Shown here one piece after another: positions 36,734-43,738 of a stretch of DNA of 64,000 bases; the stretch's first letter is position 1, and every line of letters begins with the position of its first letter. Location of the stretch: positions 1 through 64,000 of the forward strand of contig NZ_JAKCFB010000037.1 in assembly GCF_024198235.1 (NCBI RefSeq), written 5' to 3'. The notes beneath the pieces were generated by a model, which searched no databases, was not told the DNA's origin, and saw only the letters and a program-made list of their open reading frames with translations. Source of the DNA: Myxococcus dinghuensis. Its GTDB lineage: Bacteria; Myxococcota; Myxococcia; Myxococcales; Myxococcaceae. The position numbers and the translations under genes were made by a program.

Positions 36734-36797
36734 GGTCCGACCTCAATAGGTCGGCCGCCGCCTCCTCGCAACGCATTGACACGGCCGCGCGGCGTTT

Positions 36798-36837
36798 TGC
36801 CCGGCGGGCAGTCCCCCGCACTTCGGGTCCGGGGGAC
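36798..36837. terminator. double hairpin after the 718-residue protein gene
   Basis: On the minus strand two stems follow the stop codon at 36854: GTCCCCCG/CGGGGGAC (36811-36818 with 36830-36837, 8 bp, 11-base loop), and directly after it the 13-base palindrome TGCCCGGCGGGCA (36798-36810). Together they form a likely terminator for the three-gene operon, insulating maoC. Confidence 0.55.
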
Positions 36838-36853
36838 GCTTTCCCGAGAGTGC

Positions 36854-39010
36854 TCAGAACGACAGCAGCGTCAGGTCCATCGACAGGAAGACGGAGATGC
36901 GGAAGGCGTTGCGTTCGTCGACCGTGACCACGGCGCTGCCATCCGGCAGCGTCTCCGTCGTGGAGACCTTCCGCAACGCGGGCACCATCGACACGCCGCC
37001 ACCGAACACGACCGGCGACCTGAACAGGCCGAAGGTCACGAAGGCGCCTGGCGAGAGCACCTGCGCGAAGCCGATGTTCGGCTCCGCGAGCACCTTCTCC
37101 GTCACGCCCTCCTGCACCGTCTGCGTCTCCGACTTCAGCCGGGGGGACACCACCGCCCCCAGGTCCAGCACCGAGAGCATGCCGCCGATGTAGAACTTGG
37201 GAGAGAGCGGGCCACTGAGCTGGAACCCGATGGGCGCGAACACGGAGAGGGCGCTCCCGTTCGTCTTCCCCGTCACGTCGTCCAGCAGCTCGTAGGAGTA
37301 GGCTGCACCCAGCAGCGCGTTGAGCGTCAACTGCGTCCCTTCATACTTGGTCCGATAGCTGCCCACGGGCGCGGCGGCGGCCTCGAGCGTGCGTGCCACG
37401 GTGTCGCTGTCCTTCGCGTTGGCCAGCTCGACCACGAGCGGCAACCCCTTGAGCACGACGGGCGGAAGCTGGCCGTCGAGTCCTGGGATGGTCCTGGACA
37501 AGTTCGCCGAGAGGTCCAGCATCGCCATGACCAGCGCTCCGGAGTCCGTGGACTCCGTCAGCCGCTGCCCCACCTCCGAGATGGCGCCCAACGCCGTCAT
37601 CACATTCGCCACCACGGAGTCACTGCCAGGGTCGAACTCTCGTGCGAACGAGGCACCCACGGTCGCCACCACCTGAACGGATTGGGCGACCAGGGCGAGC
37701 CGATCTCGCGACGTGAAGCGCTCCGGACGGCCATCCGCGTTCAGCTTCTCGTCGCGCATCTGCGTCAGCAGCTCCTGAATGCGGTGCGCCTCGCGTGCGG
37801 CGGTGGTGATTCCGGAAACGAGCTTGGAGAAGCTGCTGGCGGCAACGGGCGTCTTCATCGCCTTCTCCACGGAGAGCACGACGGACACCGTCAGGTAGCC
37901 CCACTTGGGGTTGTCGTGCGGCAGCGCCACCACCTGCGTCCAGCCGTCCTCGCGCAAGATGGCATCGACGACCGCCGAGCCACGCTTCACTGCACCCACC
38001 GTCTTCTGGCACGTCAGGGTCCCTTGGACGTTTCCCTTGAAGCGGACCTGGCCCGGGGTCTCGCATTCGAGCGTCGCGAACTGGAGGTTCCGCGCCAACT
38101 CCAACGGGGAGCGGCCGTCCCGGGCCTCGCGGTAGAACGACAGCCCCAGGCGCGCCGCGGACAGCGGTTCGGCCGTCGTCTCGTTCACGCAGCTCGCACC
38201 GGCCAGCGCCAGTTCGGGCAGCCGCTGCAGGTCCCTCGACGCCGCGGCCCGCAGATAGATGCCCATGCTGCTGAGCGGCAGCTTCACCTCCAGGGAACTG
38301 AACGCGGTGCAGAAGTTCCGGAAGTAGTCGCGTCCCTCGCCCGAGCAGAGCTGGGCCTCGAGCTTCTCGGACAGGAACAACAAGGCCTCGGCCTTCGCGC
38401 GGGTGACCAGGAACTCCGCCAGACCGTTGATGACGGCGGACTGCACCGCGTCGATCGGGTTCGCCACAGTGGGCACGGTGGATTGCAGGGCCCCGCTTCC
38501 TGGTGCCCCGGAGAACCAGGACTCAACCGTGTTGGCAGCCCCGGGGGCTGGCACGTGGAGCCTGGCGAGCGCGCCACGCACCTCGAGAATCGCCTGGTCC
38601 GTGTCGAGCGCCCGAAGCGTTGAGACATCCACCTCGGTGAGCCCACCTCCAGTGCCCATTCGATGCACGTTCGAGCAGGTTTCCCCCAGGGACTTCAGGG
38701 AGGCGACTGCGCTTGCCCGAAGCGCCGTCGTCTCCGCCGCAAGACGGCCGCCCACGGCAGGCGCCATCGCAGCGTCGATGCGCTCCTTGTCGAGGCTCTC
38801 CGTCGAGAAGGGCCCCGGCTGGCTCACCACGCTCTCCACATGCAGCTCCGCGACCCTTCGGCAGAGCATCTCCAGCTGGACCATGAAGTCCCGCTGCTCC
38901 AGATGGCGCGCGGGGATGGTCGGCAACGCGGGTTGGATGCGCGTCCGGCACTCCGGCGGTTCGGCGGACAGGGACACCACGAGCACAACCGCGAGACTGG
39001 TCAGAGTCAT
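36854..39010 (-). CDS. large exported protein of unknown function with possible C-terminal beta-barrel
   Basis: A 718-residue protein I do not recognise. The N-terminus MTLTSLAVVLVVSLSAEPPE is a signal peptide. The first 450 residues are mainly helical with scattered cysteines (MLCRRVAEL, GETCSNVH, AQLCSGEGRDYFRNFC). The C-terminal 230 residues are beta-rich with alternating hydrophobic strands (LLGAAYSYELL, FQLSGPLSPKFYIGGMLSVL, SPGAFVTFGLF, SPVVFGGGVS, NAFRISVFLSMDLTLLSF) and the protein ends in Phe, as outer-membrane beta-barrels do. Its ATG overlaps the S8 protease stop by 4 bases (ATGA), so it is the third gene of a coupled operon. Confidence 0.75.
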   Translation of the reverse strand: MTLTSLAVVLVVSLSAEPPECRTRIQPALPTIPARHLEQRDFMVQLEMLCRRVAELHVESVVSQPGPFSTESLDKERIDAAMAPAVGGRLAAETTALRASAVASLKSLGETCSNVHRMGTGGGLTEVDVSTLRALDTDQAILEVRGALARLHVPAPGAANTVESWFSGAPGSGALQSTVPTVANPIDAVQSAVINGLAEFLVTRAKAEALLFLSEKLEAQLCSGEGRDYFRNFCTAFSSLEVKLPLSSMGIYLRAAASRDLQRLPELALAGASCVNETTAEPLSAARLGLSFYREARDGRSPLELARNLQFATLECETPGQVRFKGNVQGTLTCQKTVGAVKRGSAVVDAILREDGWTQVVALPHDNPKWGYLTVSVVLSVEKAMKTPVAASSFSKLVSGITTAAREAHRIQELLTQMRDEKLNADGRPERFTSRDRLALVAQSVQVVATVGASFAREFDPGSDSVVANVMTALGAISEVGQRLTESTDSGALVMAMLDLSANLSRTIPGLDGQLPPVVLKGLPLVVELANAKDSDTVARTLEAAAAPVGSYRTKYEGTQLTLNALLGAAYSYELLDDVTGKTNGSALSVFAPIGFQLSGPLSPKFYIGGMLSVLDLGAVVSPRLKSETQTVQEGVTEKVLAEPNIGFAQVLSPGAFVTFGLFRSPVVFGGGVSMVPALRKVSTTETLPDGSAVVTVDERNAFRISVFLSMDLTLLSF

Positions 39011-39912
39011 GACGACAAGGCCCCCAGTAGCGCCAGCGCGGCCTTGACCAACGGAAGAGGCGCGAGCCTTCCGAAGGGCATCTCAGGAGATATCTGAGAG
39101 GACGTGGAGCGGATGAGACCGGGCAGGGCTTGCCCCATCTTGCGAAGCTCGTCCTGCGTGTCACACAGCCCCAGCGCGAGCGCGGCTGCGCCCGCGGTGA
39201 TGGCGGCGGCGCCCGAGGTCAGTCCATTCCAGGTCGTCCATCGCCCGTCGGGCTGCACCACGCGCAGCGCCTCCCCGGGTGCCGCGACGTCGACCCAGTC
39301 ATCGAGGCTCGCGGTCGGGAGCACGCGCCCCGTGGAGCCGAGCGCCGTCGCGGTGAAGATGCCCTGCACCTGCTCCGGAAAGGCCGCCGTGGTGTCCGGC
39401 GTGTTGCCCGCGGCGCCCACCACGAACACGCCGGCCTGGGACAGGAGCTGCACCGCGTGCTGGAGCCGGGGCGTCACCGCGTCGAGCAGGAAGCTGCACG
39501 ACACGACCTGCGCACTGGCCGCGAAGCACCCCACCGCGAGCGCCTCCTCCACCGCATCCAGCGAAGGCCGCCCGTCTGGACCGACGATGGGGAAGTTCAG
39601 CACCGTGGCGCCAGGAGCGAGCCCGGGGCTGCGCGCGTGGCTCGACGCGATGAGGCCCGCGCAATACGTCCCATGCGCCTGTCCGAAGGGAGGGTTCGCC
39701 CACGGCGTCCCATCCGGGCGGAAATGCTCCACGCGCGTCGCGGGCAACCCACCGACGGAGGCCACGCCATTGTCGAGCACCGCCACGCGGATTCCGGCGC
39801 CCGTGGAAGCGCGCCAGGCCTCGCGGACCCGGAGCGCGGTCAGGTGCCACGGGACATCGCCAGGGACGGGCTGGGCGTCTCTCGGAGCCCAACGAGGTCG
39901 GTCGGGAGGCAT
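39007..39912 (-). CDS. subtilisin-like (S8) serine protease without signal peptide
   Basis: A 301-residue S8 protease with the full catalytic set: D47 in RVAVLDNGVAS, H80 in QAHGTYCAGLIASS, oxyanion N170 in VVGAAGNTPDT and S233 in NGLTSGAAAITAG. The Ser motif is TSG rather than the usual TSM. No signal peptide or prodomain is visible from the ATG at 39912 (MPPDRPRWAPRDAQP), so it may act in the cytoplasm or leave by an unknown route; the frame runs upstream to 40053 without a signal sequence. It lies 37 bases after a metalloprotease-like lipoprotein gene and overlaps the next gene by 4 bases. Confidence 0.85.
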   Translation of the reverse strand: MPPDRPRWAPRDAQPVPGDVPWHLTALRVREAWRASTGAGIRVAVLDNGVASVGGLPATRVEHFRPDGTPWANPPFGQAHGTYCAGLIASSHARSPGLAPGATVLNFPIVGPDGRPSLDAVEEALAVGCFAASAQVVSCSFLLDAVTPRLQHAVQLLSQAGVFVVGAAGNTPDTTAAFPEQVQGIFTATALGSTGRVLPTASLDDWVDVAAPGEALRVVQPDGRWTTWNGLTSGAAAITAGAAALALGLCDTQDELRKMGQALPGLIRSTSSQISPEMPFGRLAPLPLVKAALALLGALSS

Positions 39913-39949
39913 GTGCGGTCCCCTTCGGTCAGTCGGACGAGAACGAAGC

Positions 39950-40789
39950 TCAAGGGCTGGGAGACCGGCAGAGGGAGCGCGCGTGCCGGAGCGTCTGTTC
40001 GCACTCCCGCTCCGCGTCTGGCGCCATCTCCCGGGCCGCCACCATGCAGGCATCGAACGAGGCGCGCCCCTCCTTCGTGTCCACGCGCTGCCCCTGCTGT
40101 CGCAGCTCGTAGTAGCACCCCGTCATGTCCCCGAGCCGGTAGCTGACGAGCTGACGCTCGGTGCATCGCGTGTGGTCGGAGTCCGTGTAGCGGAAGCGCT
40201 CGCCGTGGTACTTGTCGCATCGGGTGCGCGCCGCGTCCGAGAAGACACAGCGGTCGTCGTGCGGCTCCGGCACGAGATGGGTGAGCTCGTGCGCGAGGGT
40301 GTTGATGAACTCCGCGCGGGTGGAGACCTTCGAGTCCCGCCACTTCTCGACCTGCCAGGGATTGAAGGCGGTTCCGTGGCGGCCCAGGTTCGTGGTGGCG
40401 ATGGCTCCGAAGTGACGATTGACGAGGTAGTGGACGCCGACGAACGACCGCGCGAGGACGTTGGTGACGACCGCCTCGCCGTCGGTGGCGTACTCGACGG
40501 GCTCCGTCATCCCCTTGCAGGTCTCCACGCCCACGATCCACCCCGAGGCCTCACGCACCAGCCCCCGGAAGGCCTCGTCGGCGAAGATGGCCCGGACCTC
40601 CGTGAGCCCCTCCTTCAACGCGGTCACGTCCTTCGCTTTGGGTTGGTAGAAATACACCGAGACGTCGGAAGCGCCCGCCGAGGGCACCGCCCACAATGCG
40701 TCCGCAGCAGGCGTGGATTGATAGCCACGAAACGGGCACCCCGTCGTCGACACCAGGAGCACCACGGACAGAAGAAAACGCGAGCGCAT
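39950..40789 (-). CDS. HELTH-motif metallopeptidase-like lipoprotein
   Basis: A 279-residue lipoprotein: signal peptide MRSRFLLSVVLLVSTTG then lipobox Cys18. A gluzincin/metzincin-type zinc motif HELTH lies at 167-171 in FINTLAHELTHLVPEPHDDR. The downstream acidic and Cys/His-rich region (CVFSDAARTRCDKYHGERFR, YTDSDHTRCTERQ) may supply a third ligand and disulfides. The family is unknown to me. A strong AGGGGGAG Shine-Dalgarno precedes the ATG. It is the first gene of the operon with the S8 protease and the large exported protein. Confidence 0.75.
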   Translation of the reverse strand: MRSRFLLSVVLLVSTTGCPFRGYQSTPAADALWAVPSAGASDVSVYFYQPKAKDVTALKEGLTEVRAIFADEAFRGLVREASGWIVGVETCKGMTEPVEYATDGEAVVTNVLARSFVGVHYLVNRHFGAIATTNLGRHGTAFNPWQVEKWRDSKVSTRAEFINTLAHELTHLVPEPHDDRCVFSDAARTRCDKYHGERFRYTDSDHTRCTERQLVSYRLGDMTGCYYELRQQGQRVDTKEGRASFDACMVAAREMAPDAERECEQTLRHARSLCRSPSP

Positions 40790-41051: not shown

Positions 41052-42218
41052 TTGCCCGACCCCCACTCCCTGCTGAGCCGACCGGAGCTGCTCACGCGTC
41101 ACATCATCGAGTACGGCGCCACGCAGGAGGAGCAACCCTGGGCCGAGGCGGAGGCGGTCCACCTCGGCCTCGATTGGCCGCCAGGGCTGGAGCCTCACCC
41201 GGCGCCGCGGGTGCCCCATCCCGCCCCCGGCGACCTCCTGCCCCAGGTGGACTTCCTCGTCGTCACCTGGACGGTGGCCGAAGCCGAGGCGCTCGCGGAT
41301 ACGCTCACGCCGGGCGTGCGACGCACCGCCTGGCATCCCTACGACCGGAACCTCCGGGACCACTACCTCCCGCGCCTCCGACCCTCCGCGCCCGCGCGAC
41401 GCGTCCAGCGGCTGGGGAGCTGGTGCATCACGCGCATCGGCGGATGGCGGGTGCTGTGCTTCAAGTCGGAGCTCCACCTCGACCAGGACGGCCTCCGCAC
41501 CCGCGAGGGCACGACCACCCTGCCCGTGAAGGACCTGCTCCACCAACTGCTGCGCGAGACGACGCCACGCATGGTCCTCACCATGGGCACCGCGGGCGCC
41601 ACCTTCCCGGACCATGCGCTGGGCGACGTCATCATCACCCGCGCCGCGCGCTTCTGGCTGTCCCAGCAATACCGTGACGAACCCTTCAACGGCGCCACCT
41701 ACCGCTGCGACCTGGAGGTGCCCACCCGCTACTTCAGCGACGCACAGCGCATGATGCAGTCCCACGCCGGCCGACTGGCCGAGCCCGACTTCGGCCCCCC
41801 CACGAAGCGCTACGCGTTCGACGGACCGCGGCTCCAGGCGCCGCGCCACTCGCCGGACATCCGGCTCGACGGGCGCGACATGCCCGCCTTCCACCCCATG
41901 CTCACGACGGACGCCTTCGCGTTCGGGACCTCGCGCAACGGCCTGGAGTCCCAGGGGGCGGGTGTGGAGATGAGCGACGCCGTGCTGGGACTCGTCGCCG
42001 AGGAGCTGGGCAACCTCTCCCCGTCGTGGCTCGTCGTCCGCGACGCCTCCGACCCACGACTCGACGGCGACCTGCCCGACGCACCGGGCCGGCCGGACCT
42101 GCAGGCGCACTGGGCCGTCCGGTACTACGAGGCCTATGGCTACTGGGCGAGCGTGAACAGTGCCCTCGCCACCTGGGCCGTCATCGCCGGCCACGAGGTC
42201 GCTGTACGACACTGGTAG
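41052..42218 (+). CDS. nucleoside phosphorylase/nucleosidase-fold protein of unknown role
   Basis: A 388-residue protein with a phosphorylase-superfamily core. Residues about 175-205 show TPRMVLTMGTAGATFPDHAL then GDVIITRAARFW, the MTAN/PNP pattern. Near 305-340 it has GVEMSDAVLGLVAEEL and WLVVRDASDP, equivalent to the substrate-binding Glu and catalytic Asp strands. The N-terminal 100 residues and the insert at 230-290 are unfamiliar. It has no signal peptide. The TTG start has GAGGTG 4-5 bases upstream. It is divergent from the protease operon (262 bases) and upstream of the S74 lipoprotein gene. Salvage enzyme or nucleotide-depleting effector are both possible. Confidence 0.7.
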   Translation: MPDPHSLLSRPELLTRHIIEYGATQEEQPWAEAEAVHLGLDWPPGLEPHPAPRVPHPAPGDLLPQVDFLVVTWTVAEAEALADTLTPGVRRTAWHPYDRNLRDHYLPRLRPSAPARRVQRLGSWCITRIGGWRVLCFKSELHLDQDGLRTREGTTTLPVKDLLHQLLRETTPRMVLTMGTAGATFPDHALGDVIITRAARFWLSQQYRDEPFNGATYRCDLEVPTRYFSDAQRMMQSHAGRLAEPDFGPPTKRYAFDGPRLQAPRHSPDIRLDGRDMPAFHPMLTTDAFAFGTSRNGLESQGAGVEMSDAVLGLVAEELGNLSPSWLVVRDASDPRLDGDLPDAPGRPDLQAHWAVRYYEAYGYWASVNSALATWAVIAGHEVAVRHW

Positions 42219-42316: not shown

Positions 42317-43738
42317 ATGAAGGTCAGGGCACTGCTGGCCACGCTGGGACTCGTCACCATGGGAGGCACGGCCTGCAGCGGCTCGGACGGCTCCAACGGT
42401 GTCGATGGGAGACAGGGCACACAGGGTGTGCAGGGGCCCACCGGTCCCCAAGGACCACAGGGCCCCGTGGGCCCCTCCTGGGACGTCGGCACGGGCCTGC
42501 TCCTGCAGGACAATGTCCTGAGCGTCCGGTACGGCGAGGGCGAGAACTCCGCGGTGGCGAGCGGAGATCCCCGGCTCGCCAACGCGCGCATCCCCCTTCC
42601 TGGCAGCGACGACTACATCCAGAACGGGACCACGACCCAGGCGGGCTCCTTCGCGCTGTCCGGAACGGGGCAGACCCAGGGGCGGCTGACGACGAAATCC
42701 GACCTGCGCGTGGACGCCACCTCCGACCCGGCGAAGGCCACGCCCCTGCTCCAGGTCCTCTCGACCTCCACCACGCCCTCCTGGACGGGGTTCCCGCTCC
42801 TCACGGTGGACTCCGCGGGAGGCCTGCTGGCGCGGGGTGAGCAGATGGTGGGGCGAGTGCCCATGAGCGGCGCTGGCATCCGCATGATGTGGCTGCCACA
42901 CCTGGGCGCGTTCCGCGCCGGCTACGCCGACACGCAGTGGAACGACGGCAACATCGGCACGTACTCCTTCGCGGTCGGCAACCTCAACACCGCCAGCGGC
43001 CAGGGCGCCACCGCGTTCGGAGAGAGCTGCTCCGCCAGCGGCACCAACGCGACGTGCCTGGGCGTGTCGAACAACGCCTCGGGCTCCGCGTCGCTGGCGT
43101 CGGGCACCGTGGCCACGGCCGCGGGGCGCGCCGCGGTGGCGATGGGCGGGCTGGTCACCGCGAACGGCGACTACAGCATCGCCATGGGCCGCGCGGTCTC
43201 CACGAAGGGGTACGCCGGCACGTTCATCTGGGGTGACAACTCCACCGCGACCGTCGCGGAGTCCACCGAGGCCAACCAGTTCACCGTTCGCGCCATCGGC
43301 GGCATCCGGCTGCGGACCAGCTCCTCGCTCTCCACCGGCTGCAACCTGTATCCCAACTCGGGCGCGTTCGAGTGCACGTCGGACCGTGACGTGAAGGAGG
43401 ACTTCCGGCCCGTCGACCGCGAGGCCCTGCTGCGCAAGGTGGCGAAGATTCCCGTCGAGACGTGGCGCTTCAAGGGCACGGAGGGCGGGGTGCGCCACCT
43501 GGGTCCCGTCGCGCAGGACTTCCACGAGGCCTTCGGCCTGGGCTCGAGCGACCGGAGCATCGGCATGCTCGACATCAACGGCGTGAACATGGCCGCCATC
43601 CAGGCGCTGGAGCTGCGCACGCGCGAGCTGGCCGCGAAGACGGCCGAGGTGGACGCGCTCAAGGCCGAGATGGCCGAGCTGCGCCAGGGCCTGTCGGAGC
43701 TGCGGCAGGCCCTGGGGCAGAAGGCGCCGCGCCCCTGA
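42317..43738 (+). CDS. collagen-like/YadA-head lipoprotein with S74 intramolecular chaperone
   Basis: A 473-residue exported lipoprotein (lipobox Cys20 in GGTAC). Residues 21-55 contain Gly-X-Y collagen-like triplets (GPTGPQGPQGPVGPS). Residues about 205-300 carry YadA-head-type repeats (ATAAGRAAVAMGG, GDYSIAMGRAVSTKGYAGTF). From about 350 a peptidase S74/endosialidase chaperone domain begins; the Ser-Lys pair five residues apart is visible in CTSDRDVKEDF (Ser near 355), followed by HLGPVAQDFHEAFGLG and LDINGVNMAAIQALELR, ending in a coiled coil. S74 domains fold trimers and then cut themselves off. GGAGG lies 7 bases before the ATG. Confidence 0.85.
   Translation: MKVRALLATLGLVTMGGTACSGSDGSNGVDGRQGTQGVQGPTGPQGPQGPVGPSWDVGTGLLLQDNVLSVRYGEGENSAVASGDPRLANARIPLPGSDDYIQNGTTTQAGSFALSGTGQTQGRLTTKSDLRVDATSDPAKATPLLQVLSTSTTPSWTGFPLLTVDSAGGLLARGEQMVGRVPMSGAGIRMMWLPHLGAFRAGYADTQWNDGNIGTYSFAVGNLNTASGQGATAFGESCSASGTNATCLGVSNNASGSASLASGTVATAAGRAAVAMGGLVTANGDYSIAMGRAVSTKGYAGTFIWGDNSTATVAESTEANQFTVRAIGGIRLRTSSSLSTGCNLYPNSGAFECTSDRDVKEDFRPVDREALLRKVAKIPVETWRFKGTEGGVRHLGPVAQDFHEAFGLGSSDRSIGMLDINGVNMAAIQALELRTRELAAKTAEVDALKAEMAELRQGLSELRQALGQKAPRP

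Follow-up and report, generated by a model that had tools for sequence, protein, structure and literature searches.

The minus strand of a 64,000-nt stretch of Myxococcus dinghuensis DNA (GCF_024198235.1, NZ_JAKCFB010000037.1, positions 1–64,000 of the forward strand; hereafter the window) carries at 40789–36854 three genes, specifying a HELTH lipoprotein, then an S8 protease, and then an exported protein of 718 amino acids (aa). The S8 protease and the 718-aa protein together constitute the minimal version of a two- to four-part module that is widespread in Myxococcota and Bacteroidota. The association between peptidases and the 718-aa family is strong. Computation establishes this pairing, the swapping of peptidase families around the 718-family protein, the predicted barrel of the latter, and the confinement of an inner-membrane protein to loci with signal-less peptidases. 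The module may serve to monitor the cell envelope, with the partner enzyme as its output in a conflict or cell-death response; judged from sequence, we give this reading a probability of about 45%. The features are as follows.

36854..39010, minus strand: 718-aa exported protein, core of the module, with a short N-terminal signal sequence, a helical middle and a predicted C-terminal 8-strand outer-membrane barrel
36854..37333, minus strand: C-terminal barrel domain predicted by AlphaFold2 and fold search (residues ~560–718), the region best conserved among family members
39007..39912, minus strand: S8 subtilase partner, 301 aa, D47-H80-N170-S233, lacking prodomain and signal peptide
39950..40789, minus strand: HELTH lipoprotein, putative zinc metallopeptidase of 279 aa, first gene of the unit, HELTH at residue 167

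The open reading frames sit on the minus strand where the first-pass annotation of this DNA had placed them, with 37 bases separating the lipoprotein gene from the S8 gene and a 4-base overlap (ATGA) joining the S8 and 718-aa genes. The same overlap was found in eight other loci, and in most loci the upstream peptidase gene is joined to the 718-family gene by it or by a short gap; that it fixes the stoichiometry of the two products, as had been proposed, may be so. Over 64 loci tallied by hand, a peptidase lies within two genes of the 718-family gene in 38 (33 of the 46 in Bacteroidota). Profiles built from the partners recognized S8 or trypsin-like peptidases in 25 of 112 direct neighbours as against none of the 335 genes at a distance of four or more (Fisher p~1e-16, a value which overstates independence since some of the loci are related); S8 genes number merely 4–16 per genome. 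Swapping between unrelated peptidase families, on the other hand, is not inheritable by descent. A neighbourhood search had been recommended as a check on the whole trio: the peptidase/718-family pair proved to co-occur far beyond chance, while the HELTH lipoprotein is not conserved alongside it.

The partners belong to at least eight peptidase families (S8, S1, C14 caspase, C11 clostripain, C1, C70/C39-like, M48 and M12B-like), distributed thus:

S8: the window and many Chitinophagaceae loci
S1: L059, L106, L111, L121, L181 and L182, the last two being exported trypsins from other Bacteroidota
Trypsin-like lipoprotein: a deltaproteobacterial metagenome-assembled genome (69 bits), 15 bases downstream of the 718-family gene
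C14 caspase: Corallococcus exercitus L043 (110 bits, signal peptide) and L176, other Bacteroidota
C11 clostripain: Hyalangium L044 (163 bits, signal peptide)
Papain C1: L061 and L062, two Chitinophagaceae loci
C70/C39-like: L116 and L128, other Bacteroidota
M48: L132 and L177, other Bacteroidota
M12B-like (weak match): L190, one myxococcal locus

The S8 and trypsin-like partners in Chitinophagaceae are signal-less, many with an N-terminal SH3-like segment. Among the S8 enzymes, partners cluster apart from background members (2 changes over 16 rows versus 13 in shuffles, one row being a mislabelled GH25), and a single origin of the partners was neither shown nor rejected in the cleaned set, where it had a support of 68/92 on long branches. 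Non-peptidase neighbours of the family include GH25 and phage-type lysozymes, CHAP amidases, NlpC/P60 proteins and one patatin; the last, an 898-aa membrane-spanning patatin-like protein (L174:8564–11260), is encoded by the gene immediately after a 718-family gene in one Bacteroidota genome, as a non-peptidase partner.

The S8 protein of the window is a genuine subtilase, matching Pfam PF00082 with 61 bits (cut-off 21.8) and possessing an intact Asp-His-Asn-Ser set (D47, H80, N170, S233). Its alignment to subtilisins begins at the mature domain, and the prodomain is therefore absent. No signal peptide was seen at its N-terminus, as judged by hydropathy and charge. The 301-aa protein thus shows both the full catalytic set and the want of an export signal that had been noted for it.

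The 718-aa protein has no relative in Pfam, NCBIfam or the sequences of the PDB. Its signal sequence is hydrophobic and devoid of positive charges, whereas relatives possess ordinary ones. An AlphaFold2 model of the whole protein built with six family members (mean predicted local distance difference test score [pLDDT] 44) placed beta strands at residues ~560–717, and when the C-terminal domain was modelled alone the mean pLDDT was 68, with the barrel strands mostly at 70–90. Fold searching with this barrel (VIA-align Z) returned OmpA (6.8), NspA (6.5), OmpW (6.3), OmpX (5.5), PagL (5.3) and Ail (5.2); the Z values are modest, but almost every one of the 15 best rows is an outer-membrane barrel. 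Because of this, and because phenylalanine is the last residue of the protein, we accept the prediction of ~500 helical residues followed by an 8-strand outer-membrane barrel of ~160 residues; signal-like N-terminus, predicted barrel and terminal Phe are together those of a probable outer-membrane beta-barrel protein. The C-terminal barrel surmised in the first-pass annotation is thus supported by two AlphaFold2 models and a fold search, at a length of ~160 residues and not 230. The domain shares its predicted 8-strand fold with small outer-membrane barrels (OmpA, OmpW, OmpX, NspA) but bears no sequence relation to them, and the 718-aa protein adds ~500 helical residues before the barrel. An identity as a TonB-dependent transporter of the Oar type was discarded, there being no Pfam match and the predicted barrel being small. 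PDB profile matches of the helical part to designed bundles and coiled coils were taken as chance.

In Bacteroidota, loci whose peptidase is signal-less mostly begin with a gene for an undescribed protein of three predicted membrane helices, which has no Pfam or PDB match. This inner-membrane protein stands beside 21 of the 27 signal-less peptidases but none of the 9 exported ones (p 5e-5, or 2e-4 with close relatives collapsed). Genome-wide profile searches did not find it in seven genomes with an exported peptidase, and in an eighth, G674, revealed only a short fragment. Its charge pattern suggests that the C-terminus is cytosolic; in four loci it is fused to a trypsin domain. A simple rule can be offered, namely that the inner-membrane protein occurs only with signal-less peptidases. 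The S8 of the window is an exception, since it is signal-less and no copy of the inner-membrane protein was found in its genome.

Profile searches extend the 718-family to C. exercitus, Hyalangium versicolor and further Myxococcota, to one deltaproteobacterial metagenome-assembled genome, to 35 of 294 sampled Chitinophagaceae genomes and to 16 of 395 sampled Bacteroidota genomes. Within Myxococcus it is intact in 1 of the 27 genomes of the genus and its site is variable: the sister genome G011 retains a 54-codon C-terminal remnant of the 718-aa gene (74% identical) between the same MaoC and S74 genes, and in G019 the site is empty, the next gene (CGS) directly abutting MaoC. A locus in which the start of a trypsin-like partner is joined to a barrel domain (L130:7756–8730) was rejected as a trypsin-barrel fusion and judged to be decayed by an internal deletion, the middle being missing; like G011, it is a sign that modules are lost by internal deletion. 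Carriage by plasmids or phages was dismissed, no match to the family being found in either collection. Distant members were seen in another genus of the same family (L054:5538–7886, L055:7148–9487 and L056:6640–9063), with no peptidase neighbour recognized, and in two myxococcal genomes DsbA/thioredoxin-like lipoproteins (L186:6354–7325 and L193:9689–10903) are encoded directly upstream of distant 718-family genes.

Roles in sensing, control and conflict are suggested by this architecture. The constant part would be the exported, helical protein, anchored in the outer membrane by its small barrel. The variable part would be a hydrolase effector, in almost every case a peptidase, whose gene lies close by in the same direction. 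We envisage the exported protein as a monitor or a scaffold of the cell envelope, with the partner under its control; a breach of the envelope by phage, predator or competitor would release or activate the peptidase, and the freed enzyme might then damage proteins of the cell itself or of the intruder, amounting to a conflict or cell-death response. For cytosolic peptidases the three-helix inner-membrane protein would usually provide a link to the outer component, a link that an exported peptidase would not need. The constant core with swapped partners, the patchy presence and the visible loss (the G011 remnant) make the module resemble a conflict system, and its exchangeable putative effectors conform to that pattern. 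Such a role also draws support from other partners, GH25 and phage-type lysozymes, CHAP and patatin, which attack envelopes. Self/non-self conflict had been among the roles first suggested for the window unit, and a function of conflict type stays our best guess. A somewhat bolder proposal, which we hold more tentatively still, is that these loci represent a new envelope-guarding class, with an outer-membrane-anchored periplasmic sensor, an inner-membrane transducer for cytosolic enzymes and interchangeable hydrolases (lysozymes, phospholipases and peptidases of eight or more families) that would bring about lysis or shutdown upon envelope attack.

Several observations count against envelope monitoring. 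No peptidase lies within two genes in 26 of the 64 loci, mostly those of long or distant family members. The window S8 is signal-less, yet a profile search found no inner-membrane partner anywhere in its genome, and the route by which it would meet the exported 718-aa protein is unexplained. The helical region has no reliable model, the whole-protein prediction (mean pLDDT 44) being unusable outside the barrel, and topology and signal peptides were judged solely from hydropathy and charge. Co-divergence of S8 and 718-family proteins was not significant (Mantel r 0.29, p 0.07). PADLOC matched only generic subtilase and caspase models on the peptidases and nothing on the core protein; membership in a listed PADLOC anti-phage system was accordingly rejected, the core protein being unmatched.

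A possible though less probable explanation is that the 718-family protein, together with the inner-membrane protein in loci that have one, serves to export signal-less hydrolases or to anchor them at the surface for predation or the digestion of macromolecules. The bacteria that carry the family are known as degraders or predators, and many of the partners are signal-less yet typical envelope-degrading enzymes. A parallel exists in PopC of M. xanthus, a signal-less subtilase able to enter the periplasm and exit the cell, which is secreted with the outer-membrane barrel protein Oar (PMC6434023). Oar is, however, a TonB-dependent transporter whose barrel is predicted to have 22 strands (PMC6434023), whereas the 718-aa protein has no TonB-dependent domain and a small barrel, and its gene is adjacent to and overlaps that of the S8. 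An 8-strand barrel is too narrow to pass a protein. Furthermore, C14, C11, S1 and M48 partners with signal peptides of their own need no exporter and yet keep the 718-family protein, and where a trypsin domain is fused to the inner-membrane protein it is tethered to the membrane and, by the charge pattern, would face the cytosol.

We consider it unlikely that the partner acts by cleaving the 718-family protein, so freeing the helical part or the barrel to permeabilize membranes. The analogy is with bacterial gasdermins, where caspase-like and trypsin-like proteases are exchanged around one substrate (PMC9079055), and with gated nucleases served by a trypsin or a caspase (PMC12799240); the coupling of the genes would also suit an enzyme and its substrate. 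Gasdermin operons likewise combine one constant membrane-acting protein with exchangeable proteases, but the 718-family protein is exported, large and helical with a predicted outer-membrane barrel and does not match gasdermins; its partners extend to S8, C11, C1 and metallopeptidases, and cleavage is putative. The 718-aa protein itself has no Pfam or PDB sequence match to gasdermins, a signal-like N-terminus and a barrel resembling those of the outer membrane, its helical part being poorly modelled. Many loci pair a predicted cytosolic protease with an exported 718-family protein, neither a conserved linker nor a conserved cleavage site was identified, and lysozyme and patatin partners are unsuited to a cleaving role.

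Still more doubtful is a regulatory or developmental proteolysis peculiar to myxobacteria and akin to that of PopC, the Bacteroidota loci then being a different use of the same parts. Signal-less subtilases do act in myxobacterial development (PMC6434023), and the window unit is isolated and has no inner-membrane protein, but a gene intact in 1 of 27 genomes of the genus and a remnant in another is unlike a developmental core gene. That a generic protease merely happens to stand beside an unrelated exported protein is very improbable: the 26 of 64 loci with no nearby peptidase would suit it, but it is contradicted by the S8/trypsin adjacency (p~1e-16), a pattern that recurs in two phyla and with other peptidase families as well.

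To return to envelope monitoring, two described groups of protease systems bear comparison with the module. In the nuclease-protease pairs associated with Hachiman and AVAST, and in canu (PMC12799240), trypsin and caspase are likewise swapped around a constant partner, but the 718 module has no nuclease and its constant partner is an envelope protein. System 3 of Kaur et al. 2020 (PMC7159879) similarly draws on trypsin, S8, papain-like and lysozyme effectors, of which some carry fused membrane segments; it centres on a NucA nuclease with EAD1 domains, and the outer membrane or a barrel is not mentioned. A full-text search of open-licence papers found no description of the 718-family module, in agreement with the initial impression that no system of this composition had been described. 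The interchangeability of the proteases and the inner-membrane partner in other phyla go beyond what that first inspection had observed. Two families absent from Pfam, the 718-aa family and the inner-membrane partner, define a recurrent module across two phyla. Known bacterial protease-effector systems are cytosolic, whereas the constant component here would sit in the outer envelope and, if the proposal holds, would give bacteria a distinct means of coupling surface damage to proteolysis.

Of the remaining genes, that for the HELTH lipoprotein (279 aa, HELTH at residue 167) lies at 40789–39950 as first described. It occurs in 3 of 100 related genomes, with two weak homologues, neither beside a 718-family gene; being rare among relatives and having homologues away from the family, it was rejected as a conserved member of the module.

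Two further features flank the unit:

36734..36853, minus strand: intergenic spacer separating the 718-aa gene from a MaoC-like gene, two stem-loops predicted, weak terminator evidence
41052..42218, plus strand: divergent gene with a weak nucleoside-phosphorylase-like match (PNP_UDP_1, E 1e-3, sub-threshold)

The double hairpin said to close the unit exists as two predicted stems. Its role as a terminator is not established, because folding barely beats that of shuffled sequences (z -1.88, 9/200) and no T-run is present in the stretch. Phosphorylase-like domains serve as effectors in some conflict systems; a link of the divergent gene to the module is not established. In G011 the interval between S74 and MaoC shows no trace of this gene, the 718 remnant alone being recognized there; it appears to have been lost from that genome with the trio and may belong to the same island. 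Beyond it, 42317–43738 (plus strand) specifies a surface-type protein with a lipoprotein-like start, collagen-like repeats, YadA head repeats and a C-terminal S74 endosialidase-chaperone domain, which is kept, in diverged form, at the same site in four genomes (G008, G009, G011 and G015).

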